NCBI RefSeq assembly: GCF_900112525.1
Contig: NZ_FOMD01000001.1
Location: 992,001-1,056,000 of the forward strand
Direction: 5' to 3'
DNA: 64,000 nt
Source of the DNA: Klenkia taihuensis
Lineage (GTDB): Bacteria > Actinomycetota > Actinomycetes > Mycobacteriales > Geodermatophilaceae
The translations under genes were made by a program, and so were the position numbers. Shown here in pieces: positions 34,331 to 39,695 of the stretch; the stretch's first letter is position 1; every line of letters starts with the position of its first letter. The notes beneath the pieces are model-generated. The model was not told the DNA's origin. It did not search any database and saw only the letters and a list, made by a program, of their open reading frames with translations.

Positions 34331-34612
34331 ATGACGATCCAGGTGCCGCCCGCGGAGCTGTACGGCCTGGCGGCCGCGCTGCACGGCTGCGGCGACACCG
34401 CGGCCGAGGTCCCGGCCCGGCTCCCCGACGCCGCGGTCGGCGGCCCCCTCCAGCCCGCGCTGGTGGTCTTCACCCAGGCCGTCGCCGTGGCGGGCGGGCA
34501 CCTGGTGGGGGAGCTGCACTGGCTGGGGTCCACGGTCGGCGCGGTCGCCGACGACTGGGCCGGCCTCGACGGGTCCCTGCTGGCCCCGCGCGGGTCGGTC
34601 GCCGCCCGGTGA
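34331..34612 (+). CDS. EspC/WXG100-like small helical protein, putative type VII secretion substrate
   Basis: This 93-residue, Ala/Leu/Val-rich protein has two predicted amphipathic helices. Its overall pattern is like EspC (DUF2580) and other small ESX-exported proteins. Near the C-terminus, DDWAGLDGSL gives W-x3-D, a possible relative of the Y-x3-D/E secretion signal. No signal peptide is present. The stop overlaps the GTG of a 652-residue WXG-like protein by four bases, so the two are likely partners. No ESX core genes (EccC etc.) are in the window. The assignment is by pattern only. Confidence 0.55.
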   Translation: MTIQVPPAELYGLAAALHGCGDTAAEVPARLPDAAVGGPLQPALVVFTQAVAVAGGHLVGELHWLGSTVGAVADDWAGLDGSLLAPRGSVAAR

Positions 34613-36567
34613 GCACGGTCCTCCCGCCGCCGGTCCCGCTGCCCGACCCGGAGGGCGACCCGCACGCCCTGGCCGCCGCCGTCGACGGCCTGGCCGCGGC
34701 CGGGTTCGTGCTCGGTGTGCTGGAGGCCCACCTGGCGGGCCCGGCCACCCAGGCGCCCGGGTGGCTCGGGGCCGACGCGGCCGCGGCGGCCGCGGAGGTC
34801 GGGGCGACCCGGCAGGTCGTGGGCGCGGTGCACGACGCGGTCACAGCCGCCCTCGGCGCCGTGGCCGGCCACCGCGAGGCCGTCGTGGCGGCCCGGGCCC
34901 GGATCGTGGTGCTGCGCGACCGGCAGGCCGCCGACCTCGACCGCGCGGAGCTGCGGCTGGCCACCCTCGTCGACCCCGCCGCCCAGGTGTCCTCGGTGAC
35001 CGAGGACCCGGCCGCCGCGGCCCTGGTCGCCGACGTCGTGGCGGCCGACGCGGCACGGGCGGCCGAGCACGCCGCGCTGCTGGCCTCGGTCGGCGAGGAC
35101 GCGGCCGTCGCGGCCGCCGCGCTGGGGGCCGCGGCCGCCGACCTGGGTGTCGGTCCGTCCCGCGGCGGCGCCTCGACGGCCGACGGTGTCCGCCTGCACC
35201 TGGCCGTGCTGCTGCCGGCGTACGGCGCGGCGGTGCGGTCGGCCCTGGGCACCGACGTCGCCGTTGCCCTGACCGGTGCGGCAGGCACCGACGAGGTCGC
35301 GCGCGTCCTGGACGAGCACGCCGGGCTGCTCGCCGACCCCCTGGTCGCCGGTGCCCTCGTGGAGCGGCTCGGCGCGCCCGGGCTGCAGCAGGTGCTCCTG
35401 CTGGCCGGCCCCGACGACAGGGTGGCCGGCGGGCTGGCCGTGGCGTTCACCGCGGCCGCGTCGTCGGCGACGCGCGCGCCCGGCCTGCTGTCGGCCGTGC
35501 TCGACCCGCTGGACCCCGACGGCGTCCCCGACCAGGTCGCGCTCGGCATGGGGGCGGTGGTCGCGGCGGGCGGGGGAGCGGCCCTGGCGGCCGGCTGGCT
35601 GCCGTCCCTGCTGGCCCGCGAGCGGGAGCAGGGTCTGTCGGCGGCCGACCGGGTGGCCAGCCGGGCCACCGACCCGGTGGCCGTCGTCGTGGGCGCACTG
35701 GTGGGGTCCCGGCGGTCCGAGCTCGCCGCCGGCGCGCTCGACACGCCCGCTGCGTGGACGGCGCTGCTGTCGCGCCCCTGGGCGGACGGCGGTGCGGCGC
35801 TGGCCGACCTGGTGGGCCTGGCCGCGCGCGACGCGGCCGCCCCGGTGGTCGCCACGGCCGCGCTGCTGTCCGCGGGGGCACCGTTCGTCCCGGGCGGGGA
35901 CCACGTGGTCACCGCGCTGCCGGCGACCTGGGCGCGGGTGGCCCCCGAGCTCGCCGCCGTGGTGGCGGCCCACCCGGACCTGGTCGTCGCCCGGTTGCTC
36001 GACCCGGCCGCGCCCGGCGCGGTGGCGGTGCTGGCCGGGGCGACGGCGCTGCTGGCGGAGCGCGCGGCCGCGCGGGTGGTGGTGCCCGCGCTGGAGGGGG
36101 CGGTGGCGACCCTGCCGGCGGGGCTGGACGTCACGGTGCTGGTCGGTGCGCTCACCGCGGTGCGGGACCAGGCCGCGACCGTGGCCCACCTGGTGGGCAC
36201 CGCCCGCGCGGACGCCGCCGCCGTCGACGAGCAGTTCCTGCGCAAGGAGGCCGAGCTGGTCTTCTCGCTGCTGCCGGGCACGGTGCCGTTGGTGGCGGGC
36301 CCGGTGGTCGACACGGTGCTGGGTGCCGTCGGCTTCGGCGTCACCGACCGTCCGGCGGCGCCGCTGCTGCGCGGTGCCCCGGGTGCCGTGGCCGACGCCA
36401 CCCGGCTCGTCGGCGCGCCCGGCGGTGCGGGGCTGGCGTACGAGCAGGTGCTGCGAGCCCTGCGGTTGCCGGCGCCCCTGCCGGTCAGCGCGGTGGCGCC
36501 ACCGGACGTGGCGTCCCCGCTCGGCGAGCTCCGGCGAGGCGGGTCACCCGTCGCGCGGCTGTTCTGA
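34609..36567 (+). CDS. large Ala-rich protein with WXG-like N-terminus, putative T7SS-linked effector
   Basis: This 652-residue protein is about a third alanine. Residues 15-130 are a predicted helical hairpin containing PGWLGADAAAAAAEV, a WXG-type turn. The middle and C-terminal parts are runs of amphipathic helices resembling the actinobacterial DUF6571-type region in layout. No catalytic motif or toxin domain is recognised. There is no signal peptide, and any membrane segment is weak (around 320-345). It is coupled to the EspC-like gene by a GTGA overlap. It may be an exported structural protein, an effector or a scaffold; no immunity-like gene follows on this strand. Confidence 0.6.
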   Translation: MSTVLPPPVPLPDPEGDPHALAAAVDGLAAAGFVLGVLEAHLAGPATQAPGWLGADAAAAAAEVGATRQVVGAVHDAVTAALGAVAGHREAVVAARARIVVLRDRQAADLDRAELRLATLVDPAAQVSSVTEDPAAAALVADVVAADAARAAEHAALLASVGEDAAVAAAALGAAAADLGVGPSRGGASTADGVRLHLAVLLPAYGAAVRSALGTDVAVALTGAAGTDEVARVLDEHAGLLADPLVAGALVERLGAPGLQQVLLLAGPDDRVAGGLAVAFTAAASSATRAPGLLSAVLDPLDPDGVPDQVALGMGAVVAAGGGAALAAGWLPSLLAREREQGLSAADRVASRATDPVAVVVGALVGSRRSELAAGALDTPAAWTALLSRPWADGGAALADLVGLAARDAAAPVVATAALLSAGAPFVPGGDHVVTALPATWARVAPELAAVVAAHPDLVVARLLDPAAPGAVAVLAGATALLAERAAARVVVPALEGAVATLPAGLDVTVLVGALTAVRDQAATVAHLVGTARADAAAVDEQFLRKEAELVFSLLPGTVPLVAGPVVDTVLGAVGFGVTDRPAAPLLRGAPGAVADATRLVGAPGGAGLAYEQVLRALRLPAPLPVSAVAPPDVASPLGELRRGGSPVARLF

Positions 36568-36931
36568 CCCGCAGTGCGGACCCGGCGCCGGAAGGTCACG
36601 ACACGACCGCGCGGGAGCCGAATCGGGTCGACCCTCCCGGCCCGCGCGTGTCGGACGCGGGGCCGGTGAGCAGTGGAACGGCCTCCGTGACGCAGGCAAC
36701 CACCGACACGCGGCGACACGGCCGGATGTCACCCGGCTCAGTGACTTGAGGTCGTTAAGCTTCGACGCAGAGTAGCGACGCGACCACGCTCCACCTGATC
36801 GGGCTGTCAACGACTTGCCCGGACGGGTGACGCCCTCGCAACCTGCTCGCAGCGGTCCTTGCCGACCTTGCTCTGCCCCCGCGTGGGCGGCTGCCGCACT
36901 CGTGCAGTCCACCCATGCCTGAGGAGGCGTC
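36568..36931 (+). other. Non-coding region and leader before the repeat-peptide gene
   Basis: These 364 bases hold no convincing gene. A weak 8-bp stem (CGCGCGGG at 36608-36615 with CCCGCGCG at 36641-36648) may end the preceding transcript. From about 36740 the sequence becomes less GC-rich, with AT-containing patches (TTAAGCTT near 36755). A promoter is expected here, but no good -35/-10 pair could be fixed. The last 150 bases read as an untranslated leader with several short pairing options. I found no match to a known riboswitch class, including cyclic di-GMP types. Confidence 0.5.
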
Positions 36932-37021
36932 ATGTCCAGCACCACCGCTATGTCCCCTGCCACCCGCGTGACCAAGTGGGGCCGCGTCACGAAGTGGGGC
37001 CGCGTCACCAAGTGGGGCTGA
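36932..37021 (+). CDS. 29-residue peptide with three RVTKWG repeats
   Basis: A perfect GAGGAGG ribosome site lies five bases before the ATG. The peptide starts MSSTTAMSPAT and then consists of RVTKWG three times, ending exactly at the stop. The three 18-bp units (36965-37018) differ only at synonymous third positions (GTG/GTC for Val, ACC/ACG for Thr), pointing to selection on the amino-acid repeat. The product is strongly basic, with Arg, Lys and Trp on a six-residue period. No signal peptide or known family is recognised. It precedes a hairpin and a membrane GGDEF-EAL gene. It could be a signalling peptide, a regulatory leader peptide or a small membrane-active protein. Confidence 0.75.
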   Translation: MSSTTAMSPATRVTKWGRVTKWGRVTKWG

Positions 37022-37038
37022 TCGACCCCGATCGCACG

Positions 37039-37072
37039 GGCGGGGTGGCGCAACGTAGTCAGCCACCCCGCC
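37039..37072 (+). terminator. Hairpin between repeat-peptide gene and GGDEF-EAL gene
   Basis: GGCGGGGTGGC (37039-37049) pairs perfectly with GCCACCCCGCC (37062-37072) across a 12-base loop. It begins 18 bases after the peptide stop codon. It may terminate the peptide transcript or act as an attenuator for the downstream gene. No T-run follows. Confidence 0.6.
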
Positions 37073-37145
37073 AGGGTGAGAAGACGCAGAGAACGTGGTC
37101 ACTCACTGTTAGCCTCGCGCCATTGCTGCTCCGACAGGCAGGACG

Positions 37146-39695
37146 ATGGTGGTCGACGCTCCCAGCACCGCGGGCGCCCCGCGCAGAGCGCTGCACCGGA
37201 GCCCGTGGGCCCCGACGCTGCTCGCCGTGGTGCTCGCCGTCGCGTTCGGCGTGCCCGTGCTGCACCCCGCGATCGGCCCGGTCTCGTGGTGGGTCGTCGG
37301 GCTGGTCTTCGTCGGCGGGGTCGTCGCCGAGTCCGTGCCGCTGCACGTGGAGTTCGGCAGGGAGACCTACGCCTTCTCGCTGATGGACCTCGTGCTGGTC
37401 ATCGGCCTGTTGGAGGTGGGGCCGTTCTGGACGTTCGTCGCCCGCACCCTGGCCCTCCTCGTCACGCTGGTCCACCAGCGCTACCAGCTCCCCAAGCTGG
37501 TGTTCAACATCGCGAACGGCGCACTCGAGGTCGCCCTGGCCGGGCTCGTCCTCGGAGCCTTCGGGTCGCTGGACATCGCCGAGCCCCTGACCTGGCTGGC
37601 GCTGCTGACCGCCCTCATCGCCAGCACGCTGGGCGGGACGCTGCTCGTCTCGACAGCGATCACCCTCACCGCCGGCCCCCCGGGCTGGGAATTCTGGCGC
37701 GGCATGCTCGCCACCGGCATCGTCATGCCGGTACTGGGGGTGGGCATCGCCATCGTCGTGCTCATCCTGGTCGGGTCGAGCGCCTGGACCCTCGTCGTGG
37801 TCCTCCCGCTGGTGATCGCGGTGCTCCTGCTCTTCCGGACCACCGCGAGGGTCGGTCGGGAGCGCAGGACCGTCCAGCAGGTGTACGACTTCGCCCGCCG
37901 GGTGGAGGAGGTCAGCCCGGACGAGGCCGGCGTGCGGCAGATCGCCTCAGCGGTGCGCGAGCTGCTCAACGCTGAGCGGGTCGCGCTGTGGTTGCCCCCC
38001 TTCCTGGAGGACGGACCCCGTCTGGTCGTCGTGGGGAACGCCGAGGTGCCGGACTGGTACGCCGGCCCCAGCGACCCCGAGGACCCCATCCGCCGCCGGG
38101 CGGTGGACCCGGTCGGGGGCGGGCCGGTCCTGGTGGCCTCCGCCACCGCGACCGACGAGGAATCCGCGGCCCTGGCGCGTCGGGGTGCCGACGAGGTGCT
38201 CGGCGCTCCGGTCGTGACGGCGGCGGGGGAGCACGGCTACCTCGAGGTCTGTGACCGGCGCAGCGACCTGGTGTCGTTCGAGGCGGGCGACCGGGCAGCG
38301 CTGGACGCCATGCTCACGCACGTCAACGCCGCGATCCGGCAGCAGCAGCTGCTGACCCGCATCCGGTACGACGCCGACCACGACGCCCTGACCGGCCTGC
38401 CGAACCGGCAGCGGCTGGCGGTCGAGATCGACACCCTGCTGTCCGCCGAGCCCGGCGACGTGCGCGCCGGCCTGGTGTTCGCCTCGCTGGACAACTACAC
38501 CGAGGTCACCGACACCCTGGGGCACGCCGCCAGCGACGAGCTGCTGCTGGTCACCGCCGGCCTGCTGCGCGAGCACGCCCCGCCCCGCGCGCTGGTCGCC
38601 CGGATGGAGGGCGGCCAGTTCGCCGTCCTGCTGCCCGGGCTGAGCCTCCCGGCCACCGAGCGGGCCGCCCGGCGACTGCGCGACGCGGCCGCCACCCGGG
38701 CCCGCGTGGCCGGGCTGGACCTCGACGTCCTGCTCACCTTCGGCGTCGCCGCGGCGCCGGTGCACGGGGACACCTCCGGCACCCTCATGCAGCGCGCCGA
38801 CGTCGCCCTGCTGGCCGGCCACAGCTCCGGTGGGGTGGCGAGCTACCACCCGGTCCTGGACCAGCAGAGCCTGCGCCGCCTGCAGCTGGGCACCGAGCTC
38901 GAGTCCGCGATGGCCGAGAAGCAGATCACCGTGGTGTTCCAACCCATCGTGGACACCCGCACCTCCGACATCGTCTCCGTCGAGACGCTCGTGCGCTGGG
39001 CCCACCCGCGCTACGGCAACGTGCCGCCGGACGACTTCATCGGCCTGGCCGAGCAGATCGGCCGCATCGGCGCGGTCACCGACTACGTGCTCGACCTGGC
39101 GCTGGAACGCTGCCGCAAGTGGCTGGACCAGGACATCGCGCTGTCGGTCGCGGTCAACCTCTCCGCCAAGTGCCTGGCCGAGCCCGACCTGGTCGACCGC
39201 GTCCGCGCGGCCCTGCGGCGGCACGGCGTCCCCGGCTCGCTGCTGACCCTCGAGCTGACCGAGGGCATCGTCGTCGACGACTCCGTGCGCAACTCCACGG
39301 TGCTGGCCGACCTGCACGCCCTGGGCCTGCGGCTGTCTATGGACGACTTCGGCACCGGCTACTCCTCGCTGTCCCAGCTGCGCCAGCTGCCCATCGACGA
39401 GCTCAAGATCGACAAGTCCTTCGTGCTGGGCATGTCCACCAGCCAGAGCGAGTCGTTCATCGCCCGCTCCATCGTCGAGCTCGCCCACAACCTGGGCCTG
39501 CGGGTGGTCGCCGAGGGCGTGGAGGACGAGGTCACCCGCGACCTGCTGGCCGAGATGGGCTGCGACAAGCTGCAGGGCTTCCTGGTCAGCCGTCCGCTGC
39601 CGGACGACCGGCTGGAGAACTGGCTGCTGGCCCGCACCGGCGTCCGGTCCGCCGCGCCGGGGGCCCCGCACCGCCGGTTGTTCGTGCGCTCGTGA
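37146..39695 (+). CDS. membrane GAF-like, degenerate GGDEF, EAL domain protein (probable c-di-GMP phosphodiesterase)
   Basis: This 849-residue protein begins with about seven membrane helices (residues 22-232), then a GAF-like domain (245-395), a GGDEF domain (405-565) and an EAL domain (580-830). The cyclase signature is degraded to EGGQF (488-492), so synthesis of cyclic di-GMP is unlikely. The EAL core looks functional: ETL at 613-615, Asn671, ELTEG (Glu703), DDFGTGYSS (Asp733/734), KIDKSF (Lys754) and AEGVED (Glu790). It probably hydrolyses cyclic di-GMP in response to a membrane or GAF signal. TAGCCT at 37110-37115 is a possible own -10. The 29-residue repeat peptide upstream may be linked. 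Confidence 0.9.
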   Translation: MVVDAPSTAGAPRRALHRSPWAPTLLAVVLAVAFGVPVLHPAIGPVSWWVVGLVFVGGVVAESVPLHVEFGRETYAFSLMDLVLVIGLLEVGPFWTFVARTLALLVTLVHQRYQLPKLVFNIANGALEVALAGLVLGAFGSLDIAEPLTWLALLTALIASTLGGTLLVSTAITLTAGPPGWEFWRGMLATGIVMPVLGVGIAIVVLILVGSSAWTLVVVLPLVIAVLLLFRTTARVGRERRTVQQVYDFARRVEEVSPDEAGVRQIASAVRELLNAERVALWLPPFLEDGPRLVVVGNAEVPDWYAGPSDPEDPIRRRAVDPVGGGPVLVASATATDEESAALARRGADEVLGAPVVTAAGEHGYLEVCDRRSDLVSFEAGDRAALDAMLTHVNAAIRQQQLLTRIRYDADHDALTGLPNRQRLAVEIDTLLSAEPGDVRAGLVFASLDNYTEVTDTLGHAASDELLLVTAGLLREHAPPRALVARMEGGQFAVLLPGLSLPATERAARRLRDAAATRARVAGLDLDVLLTFGVAAAPVHGDTSGTLMQRADVALLAGHSSGGVASYHPVLDQQSLRRLQLGTELESAMAEKQITVVFQPIVDTRTSDIVSVETLVRWAHPRYGNVPPDDFIGLAEQIGRIGAVTDYVLDLALERCRKWLDQDIALSVAVNLSAKCLAEPDLVDRVRAALRRHGVPGSLLTLELTEGIVVDDSVRNSTVLADLHALGLRLSMDDFGTGYSSLSQLRQLPIDELKIDKSFVLGMSTSQSESFIARSIVELAHNLGLRVVAEGVEDEVTRDLLAEMGCDKLQGFLVSRPLPDDRLENWLLARTGVRSAAPGAPHRRLFVRS

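Follow-up and report, generated by a model that had tools for sequence, protein, structure and literature searches.

A tandem hexapeptide encoded beside a GAF-GGDEF-EAL gene in Geodermatophilaceae as a candidate signal with a proposed receptor of its own

What does a very short gene do when it repeats one hexapeptide three times and lies directly upstream of a gene for a cyclic di-GMP (c-di-GMP) enzyme? This question is raised by a locus in the window, the whole stretch of 64,000 nucleotides that was analysed. A small open reading frame (ORF) at 36932..37021 on the forward strand encodes a 29-amino-acid peptide, MSSTTAMSPATRVTKWGRVTKWGRVTKWG, that is, MSSTTAMSPAT(RVTKWG)3. Its ribosome-binding site, 5′-AGGAGG (36922..36927, forward strand), lies 4 nt 5′ of the ATG. 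The tandem units occupy 36965..37018 on the same strand (Tandem Repeats Finder row 36964-37018, with a score of 96, third among the 62 rows for the window). They read CGC GTG ACC AAG TGG GGC in unit 1 (36965-36982), CGC GTC ACG AAG TGG GGC in unit 2 (36983-37000) and CGC GTC ACC AAG TGG GGC in unit 3 (37001-37018), with differences at two third-codon positions and nowhere else. The stop codon is followed, after 124 nt, by the start codon (ATG) of the GGDEF-EAL gene (37146-39695). A preliminary description of the locus had reported the ribosome site, the repeat with only silent differences and the gap to a membrane GGDEF-EAL gene, all of which were confirmed here. Its statement that the peptide belongs to no described family also held: the peptide matched 0 families in Pfam and NCBIfam.

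The peptide was an orphan by its exact word, not by its position. Among 112 genomes of the family, only the window's own genome had the VTKWG unit in tandem, and single units were present in 9. Two such units in a row, written as a degenerate DNA pattern, had no match in genome_contigs or viral_contigs, from which the window's own genome and very near genomes are possibly absent. When the peptides of five relatives were compared with NCBIfam, four had no match and the fifth (L061) had only a match at chance level (E 0.11).

Conservation proved far more general than the preliminary description saw, once the word was allowed to change. We counted 97 loci with an orthologue of the GGDEF-EAL gene (bits ≥967, 66-100% identity) in 96 genomes, one of which (G037) had two loci. 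A small ORF with at least one R-x-x-[K/R/S/M]-W-x unit was found upstream of the enzyme gene in all 97. The preliminary description had asked whether the repeat and its place before GGDEF-EAL genes are conserved; the place was kept in 97 of 97 loci, and the exact RVTKWG repeat occurred in no other genome searched. The peptides had two to five units in 90 loci, with all units identical in 86 of them and a deviating unit in the other four. Seven of the 97 had one regular unit. By eye, it was preceded by a seven-residue first copy in five of these loci (L066, L067, L105, L106 and L114), and the other two were degenerate (L045 and L052).

Within the unit, position 5 was W in all 97 loci and position 1 was R in 96, while position 4 was mostly K (56 loci) or R (37), with S in 3 loci and M in 1. 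The other three positions, 2, 3 and 6, were variable, giving 62 distinct words among the 97 loci. Examples are RVTKWG x3 in the window, RSSKWS x4, RTNKWT x4, RTGKWA x4, RNPRWG x3, RGAKWA x5, RGASWS x5 and RGHKWS x3. The Shine-Dalgarno match was six bases long in 62 loci, five in 26 and four in 9; the ORFs had been chosen with a match of at least four bases, which imposes a lower bound on this likeness. The enzyme start, as placed by the alignment, was 124-287 nt (median 179) from the peptide. No peptide among the 97 reached a hydropathy of 1.5 in a 12-amino-acid window; lacking a hydrophobic stretch, they would have to be exported by some other route. Neither an exporter nor a maturase was identified.

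Six more distant loci of the family lie outside this count (two in G068 and one each in G072, G073, G074 and G075). The two loci of G068, G068:C95 (L143) and G068:C195 (L431), have different words, RNGRWG and RAGRWG. Another distant locus, L054, has a peptide of the signal-peptide-like type with EGVSWN repeats. No peptide was found upstream of the partial gene at L056, and the upstream DNA of L102 and L103 was too short to be read.

To see how specific such arrays are to the enzyme locus, we searched 108 family genomes with a DNA pattern for three R..[K/R]W. units. Of its 120 matches, 82, at 62 loci, were within 450 nt of the start of an orthologous GGDEF-EAL gene. The remaining 38 were elsewhere, in DNA that appeared by eye to be of low complexity, and they represent no more than background because a control with the reversed pattern gave 63 matches in the same 108 genomes. 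In the window's own genome, the peptide locus was the sole match of this pattern. A separate search with a period-15 Trp pattern in 41 genomes was uninformative: reversing the pattern gave a similar number of matches, and the matches were low-complexity DNA.

The preliminary description had suggested that selection acts on the protein repeat and not on the DNA. We compared all pairs of units within each peptide at positions 2, 3 and 6, which the search pattern had left free. The units showed 305.0 synonymous differences in 757.7 sites (pS 0.403) and 30.0 nonsynonymous differences in 1978.3 sites (pN 0.015), in agreement with that suggestion. At these positions, residues were identical in 900 of 912 comparisons within peptides versus 4517 of 13968 (0.323) between peptides. 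Each lineage repeats its own word, and the word that is kept differs even between close relatives. The high pS and low pN indicate that the sameness of the units is maintained by selection at the protein level in most arrays, and not by recent copying. With a within-peptide pS of 0.37-0.40, recent copying was ruled out as the sole and general cause of unit identity. Some arrays are clearly young; for example, L035 has one difference among its four units. A function of the repeat at the DNA level, as iterons or a regulatory array, was likewise ruled out, since the units vary synonymously and hardly nonsynonymously. Homologues were thus present in close relatives, where they repeat a different hexapeptide, and nonsynonymous change inside the repeat was rare; the preliminary description had named the opposite of either as evidence against it. 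Unchanging copies combined with a changing word are what is needed of a multi-copy mature product that is recognised by a co-changing partner.

Our candidate for such a partner is the neighbouring enzyme, a membrane GAF-GGDEF-EAL protein of 849 amino acids (37146..39695, forward strand) that we propose to be both receptor and c-di-GMP phosphodiesterase. Pfam domains were GAF at residues 263-397, GGDEF at 410-558 and EAL at 584-817 (EAL match, E 2.1e-67). At the nine EAL positions that we take to be catalytic, all 79 orthologues of full length were identical. The GGDEF domain has a degenerate motif: it reads ARMEGGQF in the window, and the orthologues had MEGEQF in 36 of 79, MEGGQF in 24 and other variants in the rest. 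The signature of an active cyclase was not found in the enzyme in this comparison of 79 orthologues. The protein, with its catalytic EAL residues, is therefore probably a phosphodiesterase and not a two-way enzyme; on this one point, the preliminary description of a GGDEF-EAL protein was too generous. N-terminal to these domains is a hydrophobic and hypervariable membrane domain (residues 20-232; 37203..37841, forward strand; from hydropathy and distances), the proposed peptide sensor, which had no Pfam match above the cut-off and no match in PDB.

The full gene was available for 79 of the 97 loci, and the distance comparisons rest on these. Mean amino-acid distances for the membrane domain, GAF and GGDEF-EAL were 0.570, 0.281 and 0.123, respectively. 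In 27 pairs of close relatives with different words, divergence at four-fold sites was 0.41-0.53 over residues 1-350, 0.33 over 351-400 and 0.12-0.19 from 401 on. In three close pairs with the same word, it was 0.16-0.25 before residue 401 and 0.08-0.19 after. For example, L069 (RNWKWG) and L074 (RGWRWS) had an amino-acid distance of 0.005 in the catalytic half and 0.476 in the membrane domain, while L069 and L071, both with RNWKWG, had distances of 0.023 and 0.057, respectively. Conversely, L074 and L108, both with RGWRWS, had a membrane distance of 0.113 despite a divergence of 0.37 at the four-fold sites of the catalytic half. This mosaic pattern, with a boundary near residue 400, suggests that a 5′ cassette of peptide, spacer, membrane domain and GAF is exchanged.

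Does the word vary with the sensor? In a partial Mantel test that controlled for the catalytic half, unit distance was correlated with membrane-domain distance (r 0.252, 0 of 999 permutations); the reverse test, unit against catalytic half given the membrane domain, gave 0.031 (221 of 999). Given synonymous, GAF and catalytic distances together, the correlation with the membrane domain was 0.230 (0 of 499), compared with 0.021 for GAF (142 of 499) and 0.015 for the catalytic half (184 of 499), each given the others. When the membrane domain was not controlled for, unit distance was also correlated with GAF (r 0.199) and the catalytic half (r 0.171), each with 0 of 499. The permutations in these tests ignore phylogeny. 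A disjoint nearest pairing, which takes out most of the shared ancestry, left 39 pairs, in which unit and membrane divergence were correlated with a rho of 0.63 (p 1.5e-5); control for synonymous, GAF and catalytic distance left an r of 0.48 (p 0.002). In the same pairs, rho was 0.56 for GAF and 0.47 for the catalytic half. Among 21 pairs with a membrane distance below 0.25, 14 shared the word and five more differed at one position. When same-word pairs were compared with other pairs of matched synonymous divergence, 23 of 27 had a membrane distance below the median of the matched pairs; the distance exceeded 0.5 in 5 of 28 same-word pairs. Mutual information, calculated for each unit position against each column of the receptor alignment, was set aside as dominated by lineage: 25 of the top 60 columns were in the membrane domain, with no concentration.

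Linkage contributes to this correlation. With membrane-domain distance, the non-coding spacer showed a stronger correlation than the hexapeptide (r 0.431 versus 0.250), as linked DNA would, so physical linkage explains a part of it. When leader, spacer and 5′ region were included, the unit-membrane correlation was 0.203 (0 of 299). As in a pherotype, signal and sensor domain are polymorphic and vary together and the output is constant, with linkage accounting for a part of the co-variation.

Related arrangements were found outside this close group. We compared 54 loci of the same order with a similar GGDEF-EAL protein (L055, L057-L063 and L158-L203). By eye, a short ORF with a repeat or a terminal Trp motif preceded the gene in at least 24 of them, and most of these peptides start with a hydrophobic, signal-peptide-like segment, the exceptions being L055, L057 and L158. 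Their repeats include GGSLN (L177 and L178), SSGEVA/GSGEIA (L184 and L187) and DGGSWTFA x4 (L158), and their tails include QDLIWT and LADIVWT. Tails in named actinomycetes are ..TQDWIWN in Actinoplanes siamensis, ..STLEYVWN in A. regularis, ..EDFGWG in Dactylosporangium sucinum and ..ARGSSWA in Kineosporia; no such tail was recognised in others, for example in Lentzea cavernae, Saccharothrix sp. S26 and Umezawaea. No short peptide was recognised at the other 30 of the 54 loci, though two of them, L060 and L180, have a long ORF that ends in Trp repeats. Repeats free of Trp, in peptides with a signal-peptide-like start at the same place upstream of the gene in other families, were seen at L177, L178 and L355 (GGSLN and GASLT) and at L184, L185, L187 and L202 (SSGEVA, NSSDIG and GSGEIA).

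Within the family, 7 of 14 sampled distant paralogues (about 37% identity; L144-L157) were preceded by an ORF whose C-terminal tail consists of Trp repeats, and the ORF upstream of a Blastococcus tunisiensis paralogue (L303) has GVTWS repeats. At the class level (28 loci, L344-L371), by eye, Trp-repeat-tailed ORFs preceded 11 loci and short repeat or Trp-tailed peptides preceded 3 (L344, L346 and L355, the last with GASLT repeats). Pfam identified Peptidase_S8 in both tail-bearing ORFs tested (L303 and L060), and others resembled subtilases by eye. Trp-tailed ORFs upstream of paralogous genes were noted at L303, L144, L151-L156, L060, L180 and L290, and further ones at L345, L348-L351, L353, L358, L360-L362 and L365; the pentapeptides repeated in such tails include GVTWS, GSTWS, GAGWR, GLRWN and GSSWR. 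A repeat that often bears Trp and is apparently exported, encoded beside a GGDEF-EAL gene, appears from these sequences to be a wider theme that is not universal.

The surroundings of the peptide ORF were compared in the same way. An untranslated leader, GCGGTCC..GCTCTGCCCCCGCG..TGAGGAGGCGTC (36852..36931, forward strand), was recognised in the alignment of genus and family loci. These roughly 80 nt 5′ of the ATG were nearly invariant in nine loci of the genus, one of them shortened by a contig end, and the core was conserved in 42 aligned family sequences out of 96 extracted. In predicted folds, the leader is able to pair around the Shine-Dalgarno sequence. A short stem in the leader shows some compensatory change, but RNAalifold on the 42 sequences found almost no covariation and did not propose it. 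In the register that we tried first, only 30.6% of pairs were formed, and it was dropped; one column over, 88.4% were paired, a figure to be taken only as a lead since the register was picked after a slide control. In the shifted register, there were five double changes, all at one of five pairs, and another pair was never standard. Rfam gave no match up to E 5 for 36300-37400.

Directly after the peptide stop, an 11-bp GC-rich hairpin was predicted (37039..37072, forward strand). The 127-nt stretch containing it had a z of -1.66, and 12 of 200 shuffles folded as well. No T-tailed terminator was found near it. This predicted hairpin is a possible transcript end or processing point, and leader and hairpin may together set the ratio of peptide to receptor. 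Two adjacent ORFs further upstream, 34334-34612 and 34609-36567, had no Pfam match; by eye only, the former resembles WXG100-type secretion partners. The three protein-coding neighbours checked by Pfam, that is, the enzyme and these two ORFs, included no modifying enzyme.

We favour the interpretation, which we hold to be rather probable, that the locus encodes a peptide signal together with its receptor, the two forming a jointly inherited, exchangeable cassette of specificity that controls a c-di-GMP phosphodiesterase. In this model, the small ORF would be translated into a precursor with a short N-terminal stretch followed by two to five identical hexapeptides, R-x-x-(K/R)-W-x. The copies would be exported, cut into units and released outside the cell, or would act in series. 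They would bind the membrane domain of the adjoining GGDEF-EAL protein, and binding would alter EAL phosphodiesterase activity in one direction or the other and hence the c-di-GMP level. This control of the enzyme and an autocrine or quorum-type role are inferred. The cassette of peptide, spacer, membrane domain and GAF would be swapped among strains, while the GGDEF-EAL output half to which it is joined would stay constant. Because it would be exchanged as one block, each lineage would have its own word and a matching sensor, as in peptide pherotypes. A broader reading, to which we give slightly less than even credence, is a peptide language across Actinomycetes in which secreted short repeats are the cognate ligands of a so far unnamed membrane sensor family on GGDEF-EAL proteins and the recombining cassettes of Geodermatophilaceae define communication groups. 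It would cover the hexapeptide words, GGSLN/GASLT/GSGEIA, the C-terminal Trp motifs and the Trp-pentapeptide tails of subtilases.

Other explanations have to be weighed against a signal with its receptor. The peptide might stay in the cell as a microprotein, a co-translated regulatory subunit that binds the membrane or GAF half from the cytoplasm or from the inner face of the membrane. This would explain gene adjacency and co-divergence equally well and agrees with the lack of a hydrophobic segment in the family peptides; cationic Trp-containing repeats would also fit a membrane interface. We nevertheless consider it unlikely, because the peptides of other families at the same place start with a signal-peptide-like segment and the repeats elsewhere form the tail of a subtilase-like ORF, identified as Peptidase_S8 by Pfam in two cases. 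Alternatively, peptide and membrane domain might merely share an often-exchanged block under relaxed constraint and vary together without contact, as the behaviour of the spacer and the mosaic boundary near residue 400 would allow. This is improbable as the whole explanation: the unit-sensor correlation outlasts spacer, leader and 5′ region, and relaxed constraint does not account for the near-zero nonsynonymous differences among units.

Two readings would give the peptide a different function altogether. Periodic cationic residues and Trp resemble membrane-active peptides, and polymorphic paired cassettes are typical of toxin-immunity pairs, so that the product could be an antibacterial peptide, against which the polymorphic membrane domain would help to protect the producer. 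The partner, however, is a c-di-GMP enzyme whose catalytic EAL positions are kept in 79 of 79 orthologues and not a stand-alone immunity protein, and repeats of other families (GGSLN, GASLT and GSGEIA) are not cationic; we regard this as very improbable. Least probable of all is a leader peptide that senses the supply of Trp or Arg and attenuates transcription or translation of the GGDEF-EAL gene. Its position before the gene, the hairpin after the stop and the conserved 5′ leader with a weak stem are what an attenuator might have, but positions 2, 3 and 6, which have no fixed amino acid, are the same in all copies of a peptide, no terminator-like site or Rfam match was found, and versions elsewhere have a signal-peptide-like start. 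The last point also bears on the preliminary description, which had considered a new signalling or leader peptide: signalling is the best reading of the data, and the leader alternative is disfavoured. Its suggestion of RNA or nucleotide binding found no support, as the counterparts in other families start with a segment like that of a signal peptide.

We know of no extracellular input for most GGDEF-EAL proteins. Here, a candidate ligand is written in the genome beside its receptor in 97 of 97 loci, providing dozens of natural word-sensor pairs. If the model is true, a peptide would signal straight into c-di-GMP without a relay by a kinase or a transcription factor. Copies that are the same within a precursor and variable between lineages could also serve as a practical genome signature for multi-copy peptide signals. 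The host group is one where c-di-GMP controls development: PMC8325347 reports that the twin-motif form of RsiG, an anti-sigma factor that binds c-di-GMP, is present in 16 of 16 Geodermatophilaceae species.

Searched by word matching only, open-licence papers yielded no peptide signal paired with a GGDEF-EAL protein and no RVTKWG-type peptide, and the pairing appears to be an undescribed peptide signalling system. The tandem identical copies recall the yeast alpha-factor precursor, which carries tandem identical pheromone copies and uses a eukaryotic secretory route and a G-protein coupled receptor; no relation is implied. As regards multi-core RiPP precursors, no dedicated modifying enzyme was seen among the three protein-coding neighbours checked; as regards attenuator leaders, a GC-rich hairpin was predicted after the stop and no T-tailed terminator was found.

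Two known systems join a GGDEF-EAL protein to another input. According to the available part of PMC13220807, RpfR (PAS-GGDEF-EAL) is controlled directly by the quorum-type signal BDSF, a fatty acid bound by PAS. Both cases would have a quorum-type signal acting directly on a GGDEF-EAL protein, but the ligand that we propose is a peptide encoded by a gene, and our proposed sensor is a membrane domain that has no Pfam match. In RgsP-RgsM of Rhizobiales, a membrane receptor likewise has a GGDEF-EAL output and works with a cell-wall peptidase partner (PMC6107284, in part). That partner is a metallopeptidase, and the available text mentions no repeat peptide, whereas some paralogues here adjoin a subtilase-like, Trp-tailed ORF.

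Among peptide signals, RRNPPA systems (Rap-Phr, NprR-NprX and others) are similar in having a short peptide gene adjoining the receptor gene, and some of their propeptides carry several copies of the pheromone (PMC9765709, in part). Their receptors are soluble TPR proteins, unlike the membrane GAF-GGDEF-EAL protein found here. Their propeptides are exported; here, the copies are likewise at the C-terminal end, and a signal-peptide-like segment is present in other families and in 0 of the 97 family peptides. In ComQXPA, the signal and adjoining genes show striking polymorphism, and strains form communication groups (PMC4408185, in part). Similarly to ComQXPA and agr, signal and sensor half vary together here and the output half is constant. 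The Com system, as outlined in the available part of PMC4008528, consists of an isoprenyl transferase, a histidine kinase and a response regulator, whereas here sensor and second-messenger enzyme are in one protein and no modifying enzyme was identified. By analogy, the locus would work like a peptide pherotype locus, yet its receptor, a membrane GGDEF-EAL protein, places it outside both RRNPPA and ComQXPA.
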